From a virus, in the IMG/VR virus record IMGVR_UViG_3300025101_000073, positions 1 through 35,560 of that record: 35,560 nt of DNA; one strand, given 5' to 3'. This document shows, piece by piece, positions 1 to 35,560 of the stretch. How positions within the stretch are numbered: position 1 is the stretch's first letter; each line of letters begins with the position of its first letter. The notes under the pieces are model-generated. The model did no database searches, was not told where the DNA came from, and worked only from the letters and a program-made list of their open reading frames with translations. A program made the translations under genes and the position numbers.

Positions 1-160
1 CTATTTTTTCAAATTCATAACTTAACCATGCTTCATTATCATGAACTGTAGTATCAAACCATGTAAAACTAGTAGAACCACTAGTATTCCAATTAAGATC
101 AACTGTAATAACTAACCTATCCTCTTGGGCAGATTGTGCTATGGACCCAAACATGCTCAT
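1..160 (-). CDS. Partial CDS at window edge, probable fibre-region protein
   Basis: A reading frame opens with ATG at 160 (start of protein MSMFGSIAQSAQEDRLVIT) and stays open for 53 codons to the window edge, so the C-terminus is missing. It starts one base after the stop codon of the fibre gene upstream, which fits co-translation. The visible part has alternating hydrophobic and polar residues with several Trp and Thr/Ser-rich stretches, as in beta-rich virion proteins, but no family is recognised. Its place directly after a fibre gene suggests a fibre partner or chaperone; this is inference only. Confidence 0.55.
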   Translation of the reverse strand, partial: MSMFGSIAQSAQEDRLVITVDLNWNTSGSTSFTWFDTTVHDNEAWLSYEFEKI

Positions 161-3295: not shown

Positions 3296-3302
3296 ATATT
3301 AG

Positions 3303-3318
3303 TGTTTTAGGGTTAATA
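3303..3318 (-). promoter_or_regulatory. Conserved early-operon leader element, copy 1
   Basis: On the minus strand this reads TATTAACCCTAAAACA and ends 7 nt before the peptidase ATG. The same element precedes the genes starting at 4664 (gap 7 nt) and, slightly altered, at 6920 (gap 6 nt). It would lie in the 5' UTR just after the predicted transcription start. It may be a translation enhancer or an operator. Confidence 0.6.
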
Positions 3319-3606: not shown

Positions 3607-3997
3607 CTATTCTTTTTGCTTTAGTTATCGTGGCATCAATAAGCTTTTGATTTCTTTGATGCTTTTGATAGTCGGTTATTAACTTTTGTTGTCTATTTAA
3701 TTGTGCTTTGGACTTGTGTTCCTTGAGCCATATGTTCCAATTACGAACATTGATAAAGCCACCGTGCTCAGAGTTTCTTATACCCTGTTCAAATGCAAAT
3801 GAAACTTCATCCATATCCATAGAGCCATAGTACCTTGATAAATCATCTACTAAGAACTTAGCCATCATTACAACTTGTTGTGTGTCAGGTCTTTGCCCCA
3901 ACATCATATAACACTTGCTAAGTAAGTCAACACAATCTAGATTAAGTTGTTCTATGTCATTACTAAATCTATACCATATCTGTCTAGTCTTATCCAT
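3590..3997 (-). CDS. Hypothetical replication-associated protein
   Basis: The 135-residue protein is not assigned to a named family. It is helical, with a central segment DEVSFAFEQGIRNSEHGGFINV followed by NWNIWLKEHK and a basic C-terminal coiled region (KAQLNRQQKLITDYQKHQRN). The 'F..G.......inv..w..WL..H' arrangement resembles small phage proteins found beside replication initiators. Its start overlaps the end of the initiator gene by 8 bp, so a helicase-loader or primosome-accessory role is a reasonable guess from position only. Confidence 0.6.
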   Translation of the reverse strand: MDKTRQIWYRFSNDIEQLNLDCVDLLSKCYMMLGQRPDTQQVVMMAKFLVDDLSRYYGSMDMDEVSFAFEQGIRNSEHGGFINVRNWNIWLKEHKSKAQLNRQQKLITDYQKHQRNQKLIDATITKAKRIDDTKR

Positions 3998-4664
3998 TGT
4001 TTATCATATGTCTTGCCTCTTGCCAAGTGTTAAGAGACTGTTCTACTTTGCTTTTTGTTTCTTCTTTGGTATTCTTTTCCCAAGTTCTAACTGCAGCCCT
4101 CCAATCCTTCATAGGATTTTTACCTACCTTCCAACCATTACTTTCATAATAGTTAAAGAACTTTTGAATATCAACCTTGTTGTTTCTTTCAATACAATAA
4201 TGTTCTAAGTCATTTAAAGTTGGCTTAACAAACCTTTTAGCTTTAGCTTTATCTTTAACTATAACCTTATCTTTATCTTGTACGGTATCAGGTAGGGTTT
4301 GTAAACCCTTCACATACCCTTCAAGGTTATATCTTTCCAATAACTGTATTACTGATTTGTGAACATTAGAGTTTGGATTTAGTTCGCCATATTGAAAGTC
4401 AATGAAGTCAGGTATAAACCACTTGTCGCCATTATCAAATATTTGTATTTTTTCTAAAAAAGATTTTGGAAGCATATCCTCTGCAGGTATATCATACTCT
4501 AAATCTTCACCTATTCTAATAGAAGCCACCTCTAAATCTACTTCCCATATTCCTGCGTGATTGCAGTCGTCAAGTATATAAAACCACAGAAGTTTGTGTT
4601 GTGGTGATAGGTCACGGACAAATCTTTTCTTCCACTTGTCCGTATCGGTCATTCTTTTTGCCAT
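3990..4664 (-). CDS. Replication initiator / replisome organiser-like protein
   Basis: The 224-residue protein has a winged-helix-like N-terminus (residues about 8-50: WKKRFVRDLSPQHKLLWFYI, DDCNHAGIWEVD), a Lys/Asp-rich linker (VQDKDKVIVKDKAKAKRF, about 128-145) and a C-terminal helical domain with FFNYYESNGWKVGKNPMKDW and RAAVRTWEKN, as in DnaD/DnaT-like phage primosome proteins. This two-domain layout with a charged linker is common in Bacteroidota phage initiators. The DNA just before and across the linker (4294-4321) contains a perfect palindrome plus a related half-site, which recalls origins embedded in initiator genes such as lambda O. Preceded by a -7 box and the conserved leader. Confidence 0.75.
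   Translation of the reverse strand: MAKRMTDTDKWKKRFVRDLSPQHKLLWFYILDDCNHAGIWEVDLEVASIRIGEDLEYDIPAEDMLPKSFLEKIQIFDNGDKWFIPDFIDFQYGELNPNSNVHKSVIQLLERYNLEGYVKGLQTLPDTVQDKDKVIVKDKAKAKRFVKPTLNDLEHYCIERNNKVDIQKFFNYYESNGWKVGKNPMKDWRAAVRTWEKNTKEETKSKVEQSLNTWQEARHMINNG
4294..4321. repeat. Origin-like repeat element, copy A (inside initiator gene)
   Basis: AGGGTTTGTAAACCCT is a perfect inverted repeat (7-bp arms, 2-bp spacer, 4294-4309), followed after 4 bp by ATACCCTT (4314-4321). Next to it at 4240-4280 are repeats of the CTTTAT type. The same palindrome, half-site, spacing and flanking repeats recur at 8350-8377. Confidence 0.75.
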
Positions 4665-4671
4665 AATTATT

Positions 4672-4687
4672 TGTTTTAGGGTTAATA
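4672..4687 (-). promoter_or_regulatory. Conserved early-operon leader element, copy 2
   Basis: Minus strand TATTAACCCTAAAACA, identical over 16 bp to the copy before the peptidase gene and also ending 7 nt before an ATG (4664). Confidence 0.6.
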
Positions 4688-4693
4688 ATTTTA

Positions 4694-4701
4694 CAAAGAT
4701 A
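4694..4701 (-). promoter_or_regulatory. Predicted -7 box, replication-initiator operon
   Basis: Minus strand TATCTTTG fits TAnnTTTG and sits in front of the leader element at the same distance as the other early promoters. No TTTG is present at the expected -33 position, which falls inside the end of the upstream gene, so the promoter is weak or needs help. Confidence 0.5.
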
Positions 4702-4710
4702 GTAAATATT

Positions 4711-5124
4711 TTACAATCCTACATCTACCATCTCTTTTTCAATCTTATCTAATCTAGCATTTATATCTGCCCTTGCCTTACTCAATCTTTCAAACTCAAC
4801 TTCCCAACGCTTCAGCATAACATCTTGGTCTCCCAAGAACATAGACTTAACCTTTTCATAGTCATCAATGTAGTCTTGATAAAACTTAGGGTATTCGTAT
4901 GAGTTATTGTGTTGCTTTTGATAATGATAAAAACTACTTCTGTCTTTATTAAGATACTGATTCATCTTACCAATAGGTATCTGTAGCTCTCTCATCAATA
5001 TGTTTGAGTATATTACTCTAGCTCTAACAAACTCTTGTTCTCTACAACTTTTATCTAAAGCACTTCTAGGTATATTTAGTTGTATAGATATAATTTGTTT
5101 TAGCTTTGCTAATTCATTATTCAT
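4711..5124 (-). CDS. DnaA C-terminal-like DNA-binding protein
   Basis: The 137-residue protein resembles DnaA domain IV, the part of the initiator that reads DnaA boxes. Helices around FVRARVIYSNILMRELQI (residues 32-49) and IGKMNQYLNKDRSSFYHYQK (51-70) follow the pattern 'R..a.yL...l......iG.....rdHsTv.h', with D61-RSSFYH67 in place of the RDHSTV signature. A long helical/coiled C-terminus follows (about 85-134). There is no ATPase domain, so it is a stand-alone binding domain. It ends the operon that contains the SSB-like gene. It may bind phage or host origin DNA or regulate transcription. Confidence 0.6.
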   Translation of the reverse strand: MNNELAKLKQIISIQLNIPRSALDKSCREQEFVRARVIYSNILMRELQIPIGKMNQYLNKDRSSFYHYQKQHNNSYEYPKFYQDYIDDYEKVKSMFLGDQDVMLKRWEVEFERLSKARADINARLDKIEKEMVDVGL

Positions 5125-5134
5125 ATTTACTTAT

Positions 5135-5302
5135 TTATTTTATCATATTATATTCAATCTCTAGTAATCTTTTAAGTAACATTCTGTGTTTTCTTACTAA
5201 CTCACTACTGTCGTCTTTATACTGCTCAAGCTTTATAATAGTTCTTTGAACACTATGTATTAGTAGTGAAATTTCTTCTCTCATTAAAATGTTTTCTTCC
5301 AT
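5135..5302 (-). CDS. Small helical hypothetical protein (55 aa)
   Basis: An ATG at 5302 opens 55 codons ending with TAA at 5135. The product starts MEENILMREEISLLIHSVQR and is strongly helical, charged and Leu-rich (ends RHR-type to LLEIEYNMIK), so a short coiled coil is likely. It fills the gap between the SSB-like gene (14 bp upstream) and the DnaA-like gene (10 bp downstream) in the same direction, which supports it as a real gene. No family recognised. Confidence 0.65.
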   Translation of the reverse strand: MEENILMREEISLLIHSVQRTIIKLEQYKDDSSELVRKHRMLLKRLLEIEYNMIK

Positions 5303-5316
5303 AACTAAATATTTAA

Positions 5317-5622
5317 TTAAAAGGGAAGACCATCGTCTTCATCTTTTTGCACTTGCTTTGGTTTTGCATCTGAATCAATCTTCCAAGCTACAATGTTATT
5401 GTAGTATGTGCCTTCCCATAGCCTACCATTTATATTGATAGAGCACTTGATAAAATCACCAACACTTACACCATCAAGCTTATCTATATTATCCTTATGT
5501 GCTTCTAGTTTTATTGTCTGTGGGTAATCACCACCTGTGTTAATCACAAACTCTCTTTTCTTAAAACCACTTTGAAACTTCTTTGTTTCGTATTTAGCTT
5601 CTAACTTTCCTTCTAATTCCAT
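5317..5622 (-). CDS. DUF3127 / SSB-like single-strand DNA-binding protein
   Basis: The 101-residue protein matches the DUF3127 pattern: a strand with KKREFVINTGGDYPQTIKLE (residues about 21-40), a 'LDGVSVGDFIKCSININGR' segment (49-67), and 'NNIVAWKI' (75-82). This is an OB-fold layout. The last residues, DEDDGLPF, closely resemble the acidic tip of bacterial SSB (DDDIPF), which recruits repair and replication proteins. The combination indicates that it coats single-stranded DNA during phage replication. It lies in the early operon next to HTH and DnaA-like genes. Confidence 0.8.
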   Translation of the reverse strand: MELEGKLEAKYETKKFQSGFKKREFVINTGGDYPQTIKLEAHKDNIDKLDGVSVGDFIKCSININGRLWEGTYYNNIVAWKIDSDAKPKQVQKDEDDGLPF

Positions 5623-5623
5623 T

Positions 5624-5839
5624 TTACTTTATTAAATAAGTTAACAATTCATTTTCATCACACTCTATTTCATCTGCATTGGCCAAGCATTGTATGTGCT
5701 TTACCCTTAACAAAGATGGGTTTGCAAGATACTTATCTACAGTAGTACCTTTTGTTTCTGTGATTTCACCAAATCTTTTCTTAGTTATACCAAGAGTTCT
5801 TAGCATTATTTCAAAATCATTTCTTGCTTTATTTTTCAT
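5624..5839 (-). CDS. XRE-like HTH DNA-binding protein
   Basis: The 71-residue protein has a five-helix layout of small phage repressor-type domains: FEIMLRTLGITKKRFGEITE (helix 1-2 and turn), GTTVDKYLAN (recognition helix), then VKHIQCLANA and a C-terminal helix. No oligomerisation or cleavage domain is present. It starts 1 bp upstream-side of the SSB-like gene and belongs to the same operon. Likely a DNA-binding regulator of the early region. Confidence 0.65.
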   Translation of the reverse strand: MKNKARNDFEIMLRTLGITKKRFGEITETKGTTVDKYLANPSLLRVKHIQCLANADEIECDENELLTYLIK

Positions 5840-5841
5840 TT

Positions 5842-6039
5842 TTATTCTACAATTACTAATTCAACATCAAAGGTTTTTTTATACAGCTCCTCTATCTTAC
5901 TGTCTTCTAGTTGCATATACAAGTCTAAAAAAGTTTTTCTTATCCCTTGTATATTTTTACTATCAAGCTCTTTCACTTGATGTCTAGTGATGCAAAGTAT
6001 TGCACCCTCTTTTGTCATAGCGTGTTTTCTAATTGCCAT
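5842..6039 (-). CDS. Hypothetical protein (65 aa)
   Basis: No family recognised. The product is short and mixed alpha/beta by appearance, with an N-terminal basic part (MAIRKHAMTKEGAILCITRH) and a helical middle (IRKTFLDLYMQLEDSKIEEL) ending in a hydrophobic strand (FDVELVIVE). It overlaps the upstream gene by 11 bp and ends 2 bp before the HTH gene, so it is part of the early operon. Confidence 0.6.
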   Translation of the reverse strand: MAIRKHAMTKEGAILCITRHQVKELDSKNIQGIRKTFLDLYMQLEDSKIEELYKKTFDVELVIVE

Positions 6040-6253
6040 ATCTAAACATTCTTTTGTATTGTTCCTTTGGGTCTCTTGGATTGTCGTTTACATAAAGATG
6101 CTCTATAATTTCTTCTGCTTTCAGTATAGAAACATTTTCAAAGTCAATATCTTTATATTCATCTGCAACAGATGAGGTTTGCATCAGACCCTCTATAATA
6201 CTAATCTGATACAAATCACATCTATCATCTAATAAATCATCTATCCAATCCAT
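6029..6253 (-). CDS. Hypothetical acidic protein (74 aa)
   Basis: No family recognised. The protein is strongly acidic at the N-terminus (MDWIDDLLDDRCDLYQ) and helical, and ends with basic and aromatic residues (KEQYKRMFRYGN). Small acidic early proteins of phages often bind host proteins, but nothing here identifies a partner. Its ATG (6253) overlaps the stop of the upstream gene (TAATG), so it is translationally coupled. Confidence 0.6.
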   Translation of the reverse strand: MDWIDDLLDDRCDLYQISIIEGLMQTSSVADEYKDIDFENVSILKAEEIIEHLYVNDNPRDPKEQYKRMFRYGN

Positions 6254-6663
6254 TAGCTATCCATCATTTCGTCTTGACCATATATCCCCTGCTCATAGAA
6301 TCCTGTAAGCATCAATACTGCTCTAGACTTAGCTCTCTTTTCTGCCATAGCAACAGGATATTTACCTGCTAGACCCATAGTGTTTTCCTGTGAGCACTCA
6401 CCAAAGCTTTCTACTTTAGTCATACCAACTTCTTTGCCCTTTACCATTTGAGCAACACATCTTAGCACAACCCAATCCCTTTCCATTACAATGGGCTCAT
6501 ACTCAAGTTGTATAGAACGATTGCTTACAATCTTATCAATACCTGTTCTTGTAATAATAACAAAACCACGCTTGTCCTTATAAACATCTTCTTGCACAAG
6601 ACCATTTGCTTCAAACAATCTTCTTAGTGCTTCCTTTCTAGTTTCTTTTTTAATTTCTGACAT
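6253..6663 (-). CDS. Putative single-strand annealing (recombination) protein
   Basis: The start is placed at the ATG at 6663 (136 aa, MSEIKKETRKEALRRLFEAN), 2 bp after the preceding stop, although the frame is open to 6735. The middle has ITRTGIDKIVSN and a strand-rich part (IQLEYEPIVMERDWVVLRCV), then SFGECS and the segment YPVAMAEKRAKSRAVLMLTG followed by FYEQGIYGQDE. An 'A..RA.kRA.l.lTG' helix of this sort is typical of Rad52-superfamily and related annealing proteins. With the adjacent SSB-like gene, a role in recombination is plausible, but it is inferred from a pattern, not a firm family match. Confidence 0.5.
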   Translation of the reverse strand: MSEIKKETRKEALRRLFEANGLVQEDVYKDKRGFVIITRTGIDKIVSNRSIQLEYEPIVMERDWVVLRCVAQMVKGKEVGMTKVESFGECSQENTMGLAGKYPVAMAEKRAKSRAVLMLTGFYEQGIYGQDEMMDS

Positions 6664-6665
6664 AA

Positions 6666-6920
6666 CTATTTTTTTATTTCTGAGGTTAGTTGTTTTGATA
6701 GAATCTCTGTAGATATAAAAGCTAACTCTAGCCACGCCATATGATATGCGTGTGCTTCATCATACCTTTCCTCGTTATGAGCTTTTGTTTGCAGATTCTT
6801 AATTCTATCTTTTGCTTCTTCAATTACTTGCTCAACATTAGACATATATACATATACCTCTTTGTTTGAGACCTGCTCGTAGTAGTTTGGCAGGGATTTT
6901 TCGAATAGTTCTTTCAACAT
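6666..6920 (-). CDS. Hypothetical helical protein (84 aa)
   Basis: First gene of the early operon with the best promoter in the window. The product is helical and charged, with EQVIEEAKDRIKNLQTKAHN (about 30-49) and a His/Trp-containing helix (AHAYHMAWLELAFISTEIL). No family recognised. The ATG at 6920 is preferred over the internal ATG at 6845 because the conserved leader element ends 6 nt before 6920, the same spacing as in the other early operons. Confidence 0.6.
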   Translation of the reverse strand: MLKELFEKSLPNYYEQVSNKEVYVYMSNVEQVIEEAKDRIKNLQTKAHNEERYDEAHAYHMAWLELAFISTEILSKQLTSEIKK

Positions 6921-6926
6921 AAATTC

Positions 6927-6944
6927 TGTTTTTGTGGGTTAATA
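6927..6944 (-). promoter_or_regulatory. Conserved early-operon leader element, copy 3
   Basis: Minus strand TATTAACCCACAAAAACA, an altered copy of the leader seen before the genes at 3295 and 4664. It ends 6 nt before the ATG at 6920 and begins 5 nt after the -7 box. Confidence 0.55.
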
Positions 6945-6949
6945 CTCTG

Positions 6950-6980
6950 CAAATATACAACAAATTTACAAACCACCAAA
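6950..6980 (-). promoter_or_regulatory. Predicted Bacteroidota-type promoter, SSB operon
   Basis: On the minus strand, TTTG at 6980-6977 (-33) is separated by exactly 19 bp from TATATTTG at 6957-6950 (-7, TAnnTTTG). Both boxes and spacing fit the Bacteroidota housekeeping consensus. It drives the genes from 6920 down to 4711. Confidence 0.75.
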
Positions 6981-7006
6981 CTTTTTTATGTTTTTTTTAC
7001 TTTTTT

Positions 7007-7768
7007 TTAGATATGTACTATTCTACTTCCTAAGTCCATAGGAATAAATAATGCAGTCTTTCCTTCGTCAAGAACTACACCACAACCAAGAGTTGGCTTC
7101 TTTGGAAAGTTTTTACCATATGAAAAAGCCATAGCATCTACATCAATACCACACCCCACATTCATACCATATATCAAATCATTACGAGAGGCCATATAGT
7201 TTACACCACCAAATGAGTGACAATGTCCTATAACTGTAGATTGTCTATTAGCAGTAGCTCTGTTAACTGCTGCTCTTGCTCCACTACTTCCTGTTCCGTG
7301 TTCATATAATACATTGTCTATTTGCCATTGCAACTGCCACTTCCAACCTTTAGGTGCGTTCCATATTTCTTCATAAGACTTCATAAATCTTTTAGGAATA
7401 CCTGCAGTTGTAGCCTGTCTAAATGGTAGAGCAGAATGATTACCAACACAAACTTTTACCTCAGGAAATGTTTTATACCACTTCTCCATAGCTAGTTGTG
7501 CCTTCTCTGCTTCGCTTTCAGCGTTTGGCATTTCAGTATGTTTTTCGTGATATGATAGAGCAGCATTATCTACCTCATCTCCAATGTGTACTATTTGAGT
7601 AACACCAAATCTGTTAAATACTTCGTAACAAAAATCTCTATAATTAGGGTGGCAGAAAGGCTCGTGAGTGTCTCCTATGATTCCTACATTGCTAGTGTTT
7701 CTATGGTTTTCCACCATTTCAACTTCTTGTGGAGTAAGCCTTAGTCTTTTACCATAAACCTTTTTCAT
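7007..7768 (-). CDS. Calcineurin-like metallophosphoesterase
   Basis: The 253-residue protein has all the metal-site motifs of the family in order: G-D33-x-H35 (IIGDTHEPF), G-D64-x-x-D67 (HIGDEVDN), G-N110-H111-S (in place of the usual GNHD/E), H157 in YEHGTG, and G-H182-x-H184 (IGHCHS). The length is that of a single catalytic domain. The family cleaves phosphomono- or diesters; in phages it has been linked to nucleic-acid or cyclic-nucleotide hydrolysis, but the substrate here is unknown. It lies between a terminator and the early promoter, so it may be expressed separately. No good promoter was found directly upstream. Confidence 0.85.
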   Translation of the reverse strand: MKKVYGKRLRLTPQEVEMVENHRNTSNVGIIGDTHEPFCHPNYRDFCYEVFNRFGVTQIVHIGDEVDNAALSYHEKHTEMPNAESEAEKAQLAMEKWYKTFPEVKVCVGNHSALPFRQATTAGIPKRFMKSYEEIWNAPKGWKWQLQWQIDNVLYEHGTGSSGARAAVNRATANRQSTVIGHCHSFGGVNYMASRNDLIYGMNVGCGIDVDAMAFSYGKNFPKKPTLGCGVVLDEGKTALFIPMDLGSRIVHI

Positions 7769-7798
7769 TAAATTGTTTTATTGGTTGTGGCAATATAT

Positions 7799-7837
7799 AA
7801 AAAAAAGTGAGAAATCAAACGGAAATCCCACTTTTTT
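7799..7837. terminator. Bidirectional intrinsic terminator after the lysis genes
   Basis: The minus strand forms an AGTGGGA / TCTCACT stem (one G-U pair) extended by A-T pairs, with a 13-nt loop and a run of eight T; A and T runs on both sides make it work in either direction. It lies between the last late gene and the metallophosphoesterase. Confidence 0.7.
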
Positions 7838-7852
7838 ACTAACCCTAAAACA
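7837..7852 (+). repeat. Leader-like element in opposite orientation
   Basis: TACTAACCCTAAAACA on the plus strand differs by one base from the early leader TATTAACCCTAAAACA, but points away from the genes and has no TAnnTTTG box or gene after it. It may be a relic of an inverted early promoter region or a protein-binding site. Confidence 0.45.
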
Positions 7853-7856
7853 TTGA

Positions 7857-7890
7857 TAAGCTGAATATAGCTTATTTGGAGTGCCAAATA
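7857..7890. promoter_or_regulatory. Two adjacent inverted repeats in the 7769-7922 gap
   Basis: TAAGCT-GAATAT-AGCTTA (7857-7874) is directly followed by TATTTGG-AGTG-CCAAATA (7873-7890), both with perfect arms. They lie between the 131-aa holin gene and the terminator. They could be operators or RNA hairpins that stabilise the 3' end of the late transcript. Confidence 0.5.
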
Positions 7891-7922
7891 TAAGTATATA
7901 TTTATAAATAAATTAGAAATTG

Positions 7923-8318
7923 TTAGAGTTTCTTTTTAATTTTTTCAACAGACCTTCCCCCAAAGTATGCTCCAAAGGCTGTGAGTGCTAAAAGTTGCCA
8001 AAGGTCAATCCAACTGTCTTTAATATGTAGGTCAACATAACCAAAGTCAACGAGAGTAAATACAGTAAGGATAATAAGCATAAAGGCCAGGCTAAGAGGT
8101 CTAATAGATTTAGTGAGCCAATTACCCTGCATATCTGCTTCCCAACGCTTTGTAACTTCTTTTTGTATATTGTAATCATAATCTAGTATCTTTTGCTTTA
8201 TTTCTGATTTTATCATTTCTTTTTCTTCTGAACTTGTATGAATCTTATCTATAGCACTACCTACACTTTCTACTAAATCTTTTGCACCACTACTAAATAT
8301 CTTACCTAAAATACTCAT
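7923..8318 (-). CDS. Holin-like protein (3TM GTA-holin type)
   Basis: The 131-residue protein fits the '3TM-type holin' layout. An amphipathic N-terminus (GKIFSSGAKDLVESVGSAID) and charged helix are followed by WEADMQGNWLTKSIRPLSLA, the conserved W...W....RP element, then membrane segments at about 77-96 (LAFMLIILTVFTLVDFGYV) and 106-122 (LWQLLALTAFGAYFGG), and a basic end (RSVEKIKKKL). Such proteins make membrane holes for endolysin release. It is the last late gene before the terminator. Confidence 0.75.
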   Translation of the reverse strand: MSILGKIFSSGAKDLVESVGSAIDKIHTSSEEKEMIKSEIKQKILDYDYNIQKEVTKRWEADMQGNWLTKSIRPLSLAFMLIILTVFTLVDFGYVDLHIKDSWIDLWQLLALTAFGAYFGGRSVEKIKKKL

Positions 8319-8349
8319 ATCTTTATCTTTATATTTATCTTTATTATAT

Positions 8350-8377
8350 AGGGTTTGTAAACCCTTTATATACCCTT
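8350..8377. repeat. Origin-like repeat element, copy B (intergenic)
   Basis: AGGGTTTGTAAACCCT (8350-8365) plus ATACCCTT (8370-8377) repeat copy A at 4294-4321 with the same 4-bp spacing; only the spacer bases differ. CTTTAT repeats follow on the same side as in copy A (8322-8343). It fills the 57-bp gap between two lysis genes. Confidence 0.75.
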
Positions 8378-8855
8378 AAAACTGTTTGTCAAAGTCTACA
8401 TATTCTATGGTTACTTCTTTACCACTTTCTAATTCTTTAGATATTTCATTGTAAACCCTTTTGTAGGCGTTGGTAGATTTACCAATAAATCCATCTTTAA
8501 TTATTTGATTGTTCTCTTGCGAATCACCGAGAAGCAAACATCCTGCAGTATTTTCATCAGTATTACCACAATGTAACAAAATGTAATCAAAGTTCGGAAC
8601 ATCCATAACTTGCAACATTCCTTTATGTATATTAGAAAAACGCTTACTATACTTATTATGGAAGCCACCCTCTTTTCTATACTGTATAAAATATTTTCCT
8701 TTTGGTATTCTTGTTTCACCTTTTACCTTTAAAACTCTATGTTCGTCTTCCAATGTATAACACAAAAACCGAAGCCCAAAGCTTTCGGTTTTTTCAAATA
8801 ATAGACCATTTGTGCTATCTGATTCACTACTAAATCTATACACAACTAAGTCCAT
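8376..8855 (-). CDS. DUF5675 family protein, probable lysis enzyme
   Basis: The 159-residue protein matches DUF5675: an N-terminal VVYRFSSESDSTNGLLFE, then FLCYTLEDEHR, the turn ETRIPKGKYFIQYRKEGGFH (about 69-88), GMLQVMDVPNFDYILLHCGN and the motif H-C-G-N-x(5)-A-G-C-L-L-L-GD (about 118-132), and a C-terminal tail. The H-G...GC core resembles that of L,D-transpeptidase/YkuD-type folds, suggesting action on peptidoglycan. It lies between holin candidates and no other endolysin is evident, so it is the best lysin candidate. Confidence 0.7.
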   Translation of the reverse strand: MDLVVYRFSSESDSTNGLLFEKTESFGLRFLCYTLEDEHRVLKVKGETRIPKGKYFIQYRKEGGFHNKYSKRFSNIHKGMLQVMDVPNFDYILLHCGNTDENTAGCLLLGDSQENNQIIKDGFIGKSTNAYKRVYNEISKELESGKEVTIEYVDFDKQF

Positions 8856-33059: not shown

Positions 33060-33382
33060 AATGCAACTATACTAATAAAATTGAAATATCTCTCACATTT
33101 TTATTGCAAACTGCACTTTTCACAATGCTTTTTCTAAAAATTAAGTTTTCTAAACGCTAACTTCGTATCTCTATTCCAAAGTGTTTTTATCTAAACAACT
33201 TTTCTAAAAATAACAACATATAAAATTGAATTAGGATTTGTTATGGCTGCGTATATGTGGCTATGTTGGTAATCCATATATAATGACGGATTTTGTTTGC
33301 CAAAATGTCAGTAAATCAATAAAAAAGTGCGTTAGATTTGTGATAATTTGTATAAATAAAGAAAATTTGTAAGCAATTATTT
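33060..33382. promoter_or_regulatory. Gap before terminase, with repeated TTTTCTAAA motif
   Basis: This ~320-bp stretch should hold the late promoter, but no TAnnTTTG box was found on the minus strand. Three copies of TTTTCTAAA occur on the plus strand at 33130, 33146 and 33200, which may bind a late activator. Only a 28-codon frame (33191-33277) is present and is not convincing. Confidence 0.4.
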
Positions 33383-33410
33383 AAAAAAAACGCCCTACGA
33401 AAGCAAGGCG
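33383..33410 (-). terminator. Strong intrinsic terminator after the 362-aa gene
   Basis: On the minus strand CGCCTTGC-TTTC-GTAGGGCG forms an 8-bp stem with two G-U pairs, followed by eight T. It separates the right-hand accessory unit from the packaging operon. Confidence 0.85.
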
Positions 33411-33499
33411 ATTATAATAACAATAATTAAAAATATTGTTGTCGGTGTGTAGTTTTCTAATTTGTTTATATCATAAGCAATTTAATTAAAGTTAATAAA

Positions 33500-35140: not shown

Positions 35141-35473
35141 CTATAAACTTTCTTTACAATAACCACATCTTCTGATATCTTCATCAAATGATGCACCACA
35201 ACAAGCTGATTCTTTTTGGTCAGCATCTCTAAGATAATCTACAAGCTCAAAGTTTTCGTAGCTATCCCAATCCAAATCGTAGTGTGCATAGAACACACCC
35301 TCATATGTAAAAGAAATATCTAAATCGTTGTCACTTGTCATTACATCTATCTCATCAAAACCCATAGACTGTAAGTAGTTTTCTACTGATGAATCGCTTG
35401 GTCTGATATCAATAGTATGGTTTTCTCTCCAATCGCTATCGCAATATCCTATGTCACTTCCTGCTCTACACAT
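35141..35473 (-). CDS. Small zinc-ribbon protein (110 aa)
   Basis: The start is placed at ATG 35473 (MCRAGSDIGYCDSDWRENHT); the frame extends upstream to a GTG at 35524 but that part lies in low-complexity sequence. The protein is acidic with DIRPSDSSVENYLQSMGFDE and ends with a zinc ribbon: C91, C92, C103 and C106 (ACCGASFDEDIRRCGYCKES). The CCGAS-x-DED motif is shared with the 362-aa protein downstream, which suggests a common partner or duplicated ribbon. Function unknown. It is followed by a terminator. Confidence 0.6.
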   Translation of the reverse strand: MCRAGSDIGYCDSDWRENHTIDIRPSDSSVENYLQSMGFDEIDVMTSDNDLDISFTYEGVFYAHYDLDWDSYENFELVDYLRDADQKESACCGASFDEDIRRCGYCKESL

Positions 35474-35523
35474 AATAATAATTTTTTTTAAGGTTAGTTT
35501 TTTTGGCGTTTTTTCTAGGGACA

Positions 35524-35560
35524 CCCCCCCTGCTATCCCCTAGCATACCCCCCCCCTGAG
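35524..35560. other. C-rich window end with inverted repeat
   Basis: C7 (35524-35530), then TGCTA-TCCCC-TAGCA (perfect 5-bp arms), then C9 (35548-35556). The minus strand could form a G-quadruplex. Such a run in an AT-rich genome is odd and may mark a contig edge or a DNA end. Confidence 0.5.

Follow-up and report, generated by a model that had tools for sequence, protein, structure and literature searches.

The window analysed here is a complete IMG/VR record of 35,560 bp from a marine phage, and all genes discussed below are encoded on its minus strand. A 28-bp sequence, AGGGTTTGTAAACCCT-N4-ATACCCTT, occurs in it at positions 4294-4321 and 8350-8377, on one strand and without a mismatch, exactly as the original prediction had stated. 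The first copy (copy A) is embedded in the gene of a predicted replication initiator, and the second (copy B) is located between the genes for a DUF5675 protein and a holin. The features at the two sites are as follows.

3990..4664, minus strand: gene for a predicted replication initiator/replisome organizer, 224 aa (phrog_15768/phrog_28809; AlphaFold model)
4238..4277, minus strand: copy A hexamers, AAAGAT/AAGGTT/ATAGTT/AAAGCT, encoding the linker DKDKVIVKDKAK
4294..4321, minus strand: copy A iterons, AAGGGTATGTG, AAGGGTTTACA and AACCCT (gene sense), identified by the exact repeat and by synonymous divergence
4694..4701, minus strand: TATCTTTG, a -7 element of the Bacteroidota type in the initiator gene's own promoter
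7923..8318, minus strand: holin gene, immediately downstream of copy B (phrog_3427 holin, E = 8e-25)
8319..8349, minus strand: copy B hexamers, ATATAATAAAGATAAATATAAAGATAAAGAT, ending at the holin start codon
8350..8377, minus strand: copy B iterons, AAGGGTATATA, AAGGGTTTACA and AACCCT (gene sense), an exact repeat in an intergenic position
8376..8855, minus strand: DUF5675 gene, immediately upstream of copy B (PF18925, E = 2e-25)

Copy B had been described as having no coding role, which is correct except for 2 nt that it shares with the stop codon of the gene at 8376..8855. The host is presumably a member of the Bacteroidota, as suggested by promoter elements and distant relatives. The two ends of the window (1-100 and 35460-35560) suggest that this may be a permuted genome that is nearly complete. 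In one relative (L006), the sequence past the 1253-1450 gene leads on to the g127 gene and to a G-rich repeat resembling the one at the opposite end of the window; the window's contig therefore probably broke at a G-run.

Iterons and hexamers form a two-part element

A chance origin of the repeat could be ruled out, since none of 100 shuffled windows contained the 28-bp element (zero expected). The palindrome is also not spread over many other sites, the outcome that would have spoken against the original prediction: no third match was found in the window at up to three mismatches. Around the 28-bp element, the two copies are 78% identical over a 64-bp stretch. The inverted repeat that had been noticed is present, but it is part of a larger element, an array of iterons with an 11-bp period, AAGGGTN5 AAGGGTN6 ACCCT (gene sense), which comprises two direct units and one inverted unit. 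In both copies, the iterons are followed on their 3' side by AT-rich hexamers of the form TAWRGH (gene sense), repeated as 6-bp units; these are the CTTTAT repeats previously seen on one side of both copies. When the entire window was scanned under relaxed criteria, exactly two arrays with iterons and hexamers were detected, namely copies A and B; a reversed control had none.

The association of the two parts was then evident from 1.65 Mb of sequence, in which runs of at least three hexamers were counted on both strands. There were 124 such hexamer arrays (compared with 2 in 10.7 Mb of simulated sequence), of which 121 were located after intact iterons and two after a degenerate iteron, and one was cut off by a contig edge. 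Since hexamer arrays are nearly always found behind iterons, the iterons and hexamers can be regarded as one two-part element. An RNA hairpin or terminator was rejected as an explanation, because the inverted repeat does not preserve its inner pair (9 GG and 3 CC mismatches in 49) and no T-run follows. Cumulative GC skew, which had been suggested as a check, was uninformative and gave no origin signal, because every gene lies on the same strand and the 4-fold skew is flat.

Two further kinds of repeats were observed in the window. A half-copy, TTGTAAACCCTTT, is present at 8449-8461, at a distance of 94 bp from copy B and within the DUF5675 gene. In addition, boxes resembling TTAACCCTAAAAC are repeated at 3302-3318, 4671-4687, 6928-6944 and 7836-7852; three are located just 3' of TAnnTTTG promoters, ahead of start codons, and two include an AACCCT unit. 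These boxes might function as leader elements or each provide a single site for the initiator.

The initiator protein

The 224-residue protein matched PHROG families without known function (phrog_15768/phrog_28809). It had no significant match among Pfam and NCBIfam families, and sequence and fold searches against PDB revealed nothing significant. AlphaFold produced a poor model from close relatives only, and we used a diverse alignment, with which the pLDDT was 76.5. In this model, the N-terminal domain is a winged helix (residues 20-110, pLDDT about 90), the linker (residues 119-142) is mostly disordered, and the C-terminal domain is helical. Fold matches among viral proteins included DUF6291 (E = 5e-4); those named replisome organizer or replication initiator were weak (best E = 5e-3). 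The predicted layout, i.e., an N-terminal winged helix, a low-complexity linker and a helical C-terminal domain, fits that of phage replisome organizers and HTH initiators.

Copy A is constrained at the DNA level

The iterons of copy A span approximately codons 114-125, where the N-terminal domain of the initiator ends, and the hexamers approximately codons 130-142, where they encode a KDKDK linker with restricted codons. Thus, copy A is indeed located just before the linker-coding part of the gene, as had been proposed. We retrieved 80 relatives, and in all 80 the initiator gene has the array in the corresponding position. It occurs in two arrangements, one with a palindromic third unit and the other with a third direct and an inverted fourth unit.

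Among 54 non-redundant genes, synonymous divergence in codons 114-125 was 0.042, approximately 8-fold lower than the gene mean of 0.34; few if any parts of the gene have lower values. Codons inside the hexamer arrays were restricted to A[AT][AG]G[ACT]T. In the hexamer part, Ile was encoded by ATA in 65/65 cases (241/520 outside), Asp by GAT in 119/120 (430/757 outside) and Val by GTT in 103/111 (180/634 outside). The low synonymous divergence and the restricted codons indicate that the DNA itself, beyond the protein alone, is under selection. The hexamer array of copy A is likely a DNA unwinding element. Three initiator genes of the window's clade (L032, L039 and L040) keep the iterons and have lost the KDKDK-encoding hexamers; one of these relatives (L032) still has copy B and a third copy, which is described below.

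External copies in relatives

Copy B is a stable feature of its position: all 39 loci holding the DUF5675 gene and the holin/phosphoesterase gene (or the next gene) have an array there, and each of the 38 B arrays scored under strict criteria keeps at least two hexamers beside the iterons. In one locus (L033), the holin gene is present, the DUF5675 gene was undetected and copy B is absent.

A third array (copy C) is present in most relatives upstream of the small terminase gene (TerS), within 400 bp of it in the window's clade. It was found in 15 of the 16 loci reaching TerS and is degenerate in the remaining one. In the window, the place expected for copy C (33060-33480, before the small terminase gene) holds no array. 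Across 19 records from relatives, matches to the iteron pattern occurred at one to three places on the strand of the initiator (three in most long contigs), with one additional overlapping reverse match in G009 and none in a backwards control. Copies B and C bracket the early module, and within one genome they have a common motif layout and no extended identity. A role as a packaging site was rejected: copy C is near TerS, yet copies A and B are not. Strict covariation between the types of copies A and B was also considered and dropped, as the association was loose. The element is absent from the cultured flavophages P2559Y, P2559S and phi12:1, and literature searches for a similar origin in flavophages gave no relevant paper among the hits listed.

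A sister clade (L098 and L248-L298; 45 loci) has no array in its initiator genes (0/45). Four near-complete genomes of this clade (G025-G028), which have the same gene order, carry two external noncoding arrays: a B-like array ahead of the early genes and a C-like array ahead of the terminase gene (none in a reversed control). The B-like array stands where the early operon begins and not next to the holin gene. Some other contigs of the sister clade had no clear external array under the criteria used. The lack of copy A in this clade, together with the lack of copy A hexamers in L032, suggests that external copies seem sufficient without copy A.

More distant relatives (Pan5, L094-L097, L101 and L299-L302) have the N-terminal domain in common and mostly different C-terminal domains. 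They have an embedded array with the same layout and another core, CCCC..CCCC..GGGG (for example, two ATCCCCCATTT units followed by ATGGGG, or AAGCCCCTTGCAAGGGGCT), in most cases with hexamers after it; in the complete genome of Pan5 the palindrome is single. A Porphyromonas phage protein with a similar C-terminal domain and another N-terminal domain has AAAGAT hexamers and no such iterons. Since the embedded array tracks the N-terminal domain despite changes of the C-terminal domain, the iterons appear to go with the former, as would be expected if this domain binds them. In a midpoint-rooted tree of the N-terminal domain, each of the three groups formed one cluster.

Discussion

Judged by its conservation, the element is real and functional. 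Copies A and B are probably two complete origin modules that would be used by one initiator, and copy B could then serve as a second origin and perhaps as a fork barrier. We infer binding, melting, firing and fork blocking by the following scheme. The 224-residue initiator would bind the 11-bp iterons via its N-terminal winged-helix domain, the adjoining hexamer array would melt as an unwinding element, and the C-terminal domain of the initiator would recruit the helicase machinery. Within the initiator coding sequence, the hexamers of copy A would double as a flexible linker. Copy B would be a free-standing duplicate usable as a second origin and, when occupied by the initiator, may also block forks, as proposed for oriR of phage SPP1. 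The idea of an embedded origin with a noncoding duplicate, put forward in the original prediction, is well supported by the constraint on copy A, the presence of copy B in 39/39 loci, the co-occurrence of iterons and hexamers and the sister clade with external copies only.

Several known origins have some of these properties. In phage lambda, the origin is confined to a single locus in gene O, whose linker region contains four iterons (each about 18-19 bp); the iterons of copy A likewise lie near the linker of an initiator gene, but here the period is 11 bp and there are two loci. Control loci of iteron plasmids are extra initiator-binding iterons outside the origin. Unlike these, each extra copy here (B and C) also has unwinding-type repeats, i.e., neither is an iteron-only locus, as both carry hexamers. 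The lytic origin of phage P1 is postulated to be inside repL, with an AT-rich region, and synonymous base changes served as tests (PMC9948254). It resembles copy A in its place inside an initiator gene and in having an AT-rich region, but the abstract of that study describes no second copy for P1.

The closest described case is Bacillus phage SPP1, in which oriL is inside gene 38 and oriR is intergenic; both contain direct repeats and an AT-rich unwinding element and are bound by G38P, and it has been proposed that forks stall at oriR and that this triggers sigma replication (PMC6316719, PMC3485210). By analogy, copies A and B may be viewed as origin modules. A candidate origin under DNA-level constraint lies within the initiator gene (copy A), and a second, noncoding copy has direct repeats and an AT-rich region (copy B). 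The differences are the 11-bp GGGT iterons and TAWRGH hexamers, a spacing of 4 kb versus 12-13 kb in SPP1, the frequent third copy before the terminase gene and the sister clade without an embedded copy.

Of the three roles that had been envisaged for copy B, a second origin fits best. An unlikely alternative is that copy B is an initiator-bound fork barrier that does not fire, so that theta replication would start from copy A and forks would stall at copy B (and C), which would switch replication to sigma mode and concatemers. Such a barrier has been proposed for SPP1 oriR (PMC6316719, PMC3485210), and copies B and C flank the early module. However, if the element is an origin, an external copy must be the origin in the sister genomes without copy A, which favours firing at copy B over pure blocking; moreover, a barrier has no obvious need for the hexamers that copies B and C keep.

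It is improbable that copy B serves to titrate or handcuff the initiator and so limit its free amount, as the extra iterons of iteron plasmids do. Its iterons are the same binding units and lie outside the initiator gene, but titration alone leaves the hexamers at copies B and C unexplained. Hexamers are needless for titration and are kept in every strictly scored B array, which favours firing, and the sister clade has external copies only. Equally improbable is the use of copies B and C as operators, at which bound initiator, or some other factor, would regulate how the holin gene (B) or the terminase gene (C) is transcribed. Both copies do precede these genes closely and have a TATATAATAAAG-like sequence after the iterons. 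However, the 57-nt gap of copy B contains no Bacteroidota-type promoter (TAnnTTTG), the sister-clade array is not at the holin gene, and copy A has the same two parts inside a coding sequence. The absence of a promoter at copy B and the lack of the lysis context in the sister clade also led us to reject the proposed switch linking replication to lysis, for which there was no positive evidence; in addition, copy C precedes the terminase gene. Finally, copies B and C bracket the early module as would module-boundary sequences for recombination between phages, but such a role without replication is very improbable given their lack of extended identity within one genome and the site-by-site DNA constraint on copy A inside the gene.

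If copies A and B are origin modules, the origin may have moved by duplication, a scenario that we consider tentatively, at slightly less than even chances: from an embedded origin only (clade I), through two or three modules (the window's clade), to external origins only (the sister clade), which would be autonomous and bracket the early replication module. As the tree is midpoint-rooted, the direction of change among the three groups is presumed.

Many phages conceal their origin within the gene of the initiator, and it is hard to study the reasons for which, and the ways in which, it can move out. The phages described here offer a natural series, from inside to both to outside, that is tied to one DNA-binding domain and can be read from sequence. 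The 11-bp GGGT iterons and TAWRGH hexamers also provide a motif for finding origins in uncultured phages. Overall, it seems that a replication start site can leave the initiator gene, and origin relocation, multi-origin replication and a theta-to-sigma role such as that proposed for SPP1 oriR become testable in widespread marine phages.
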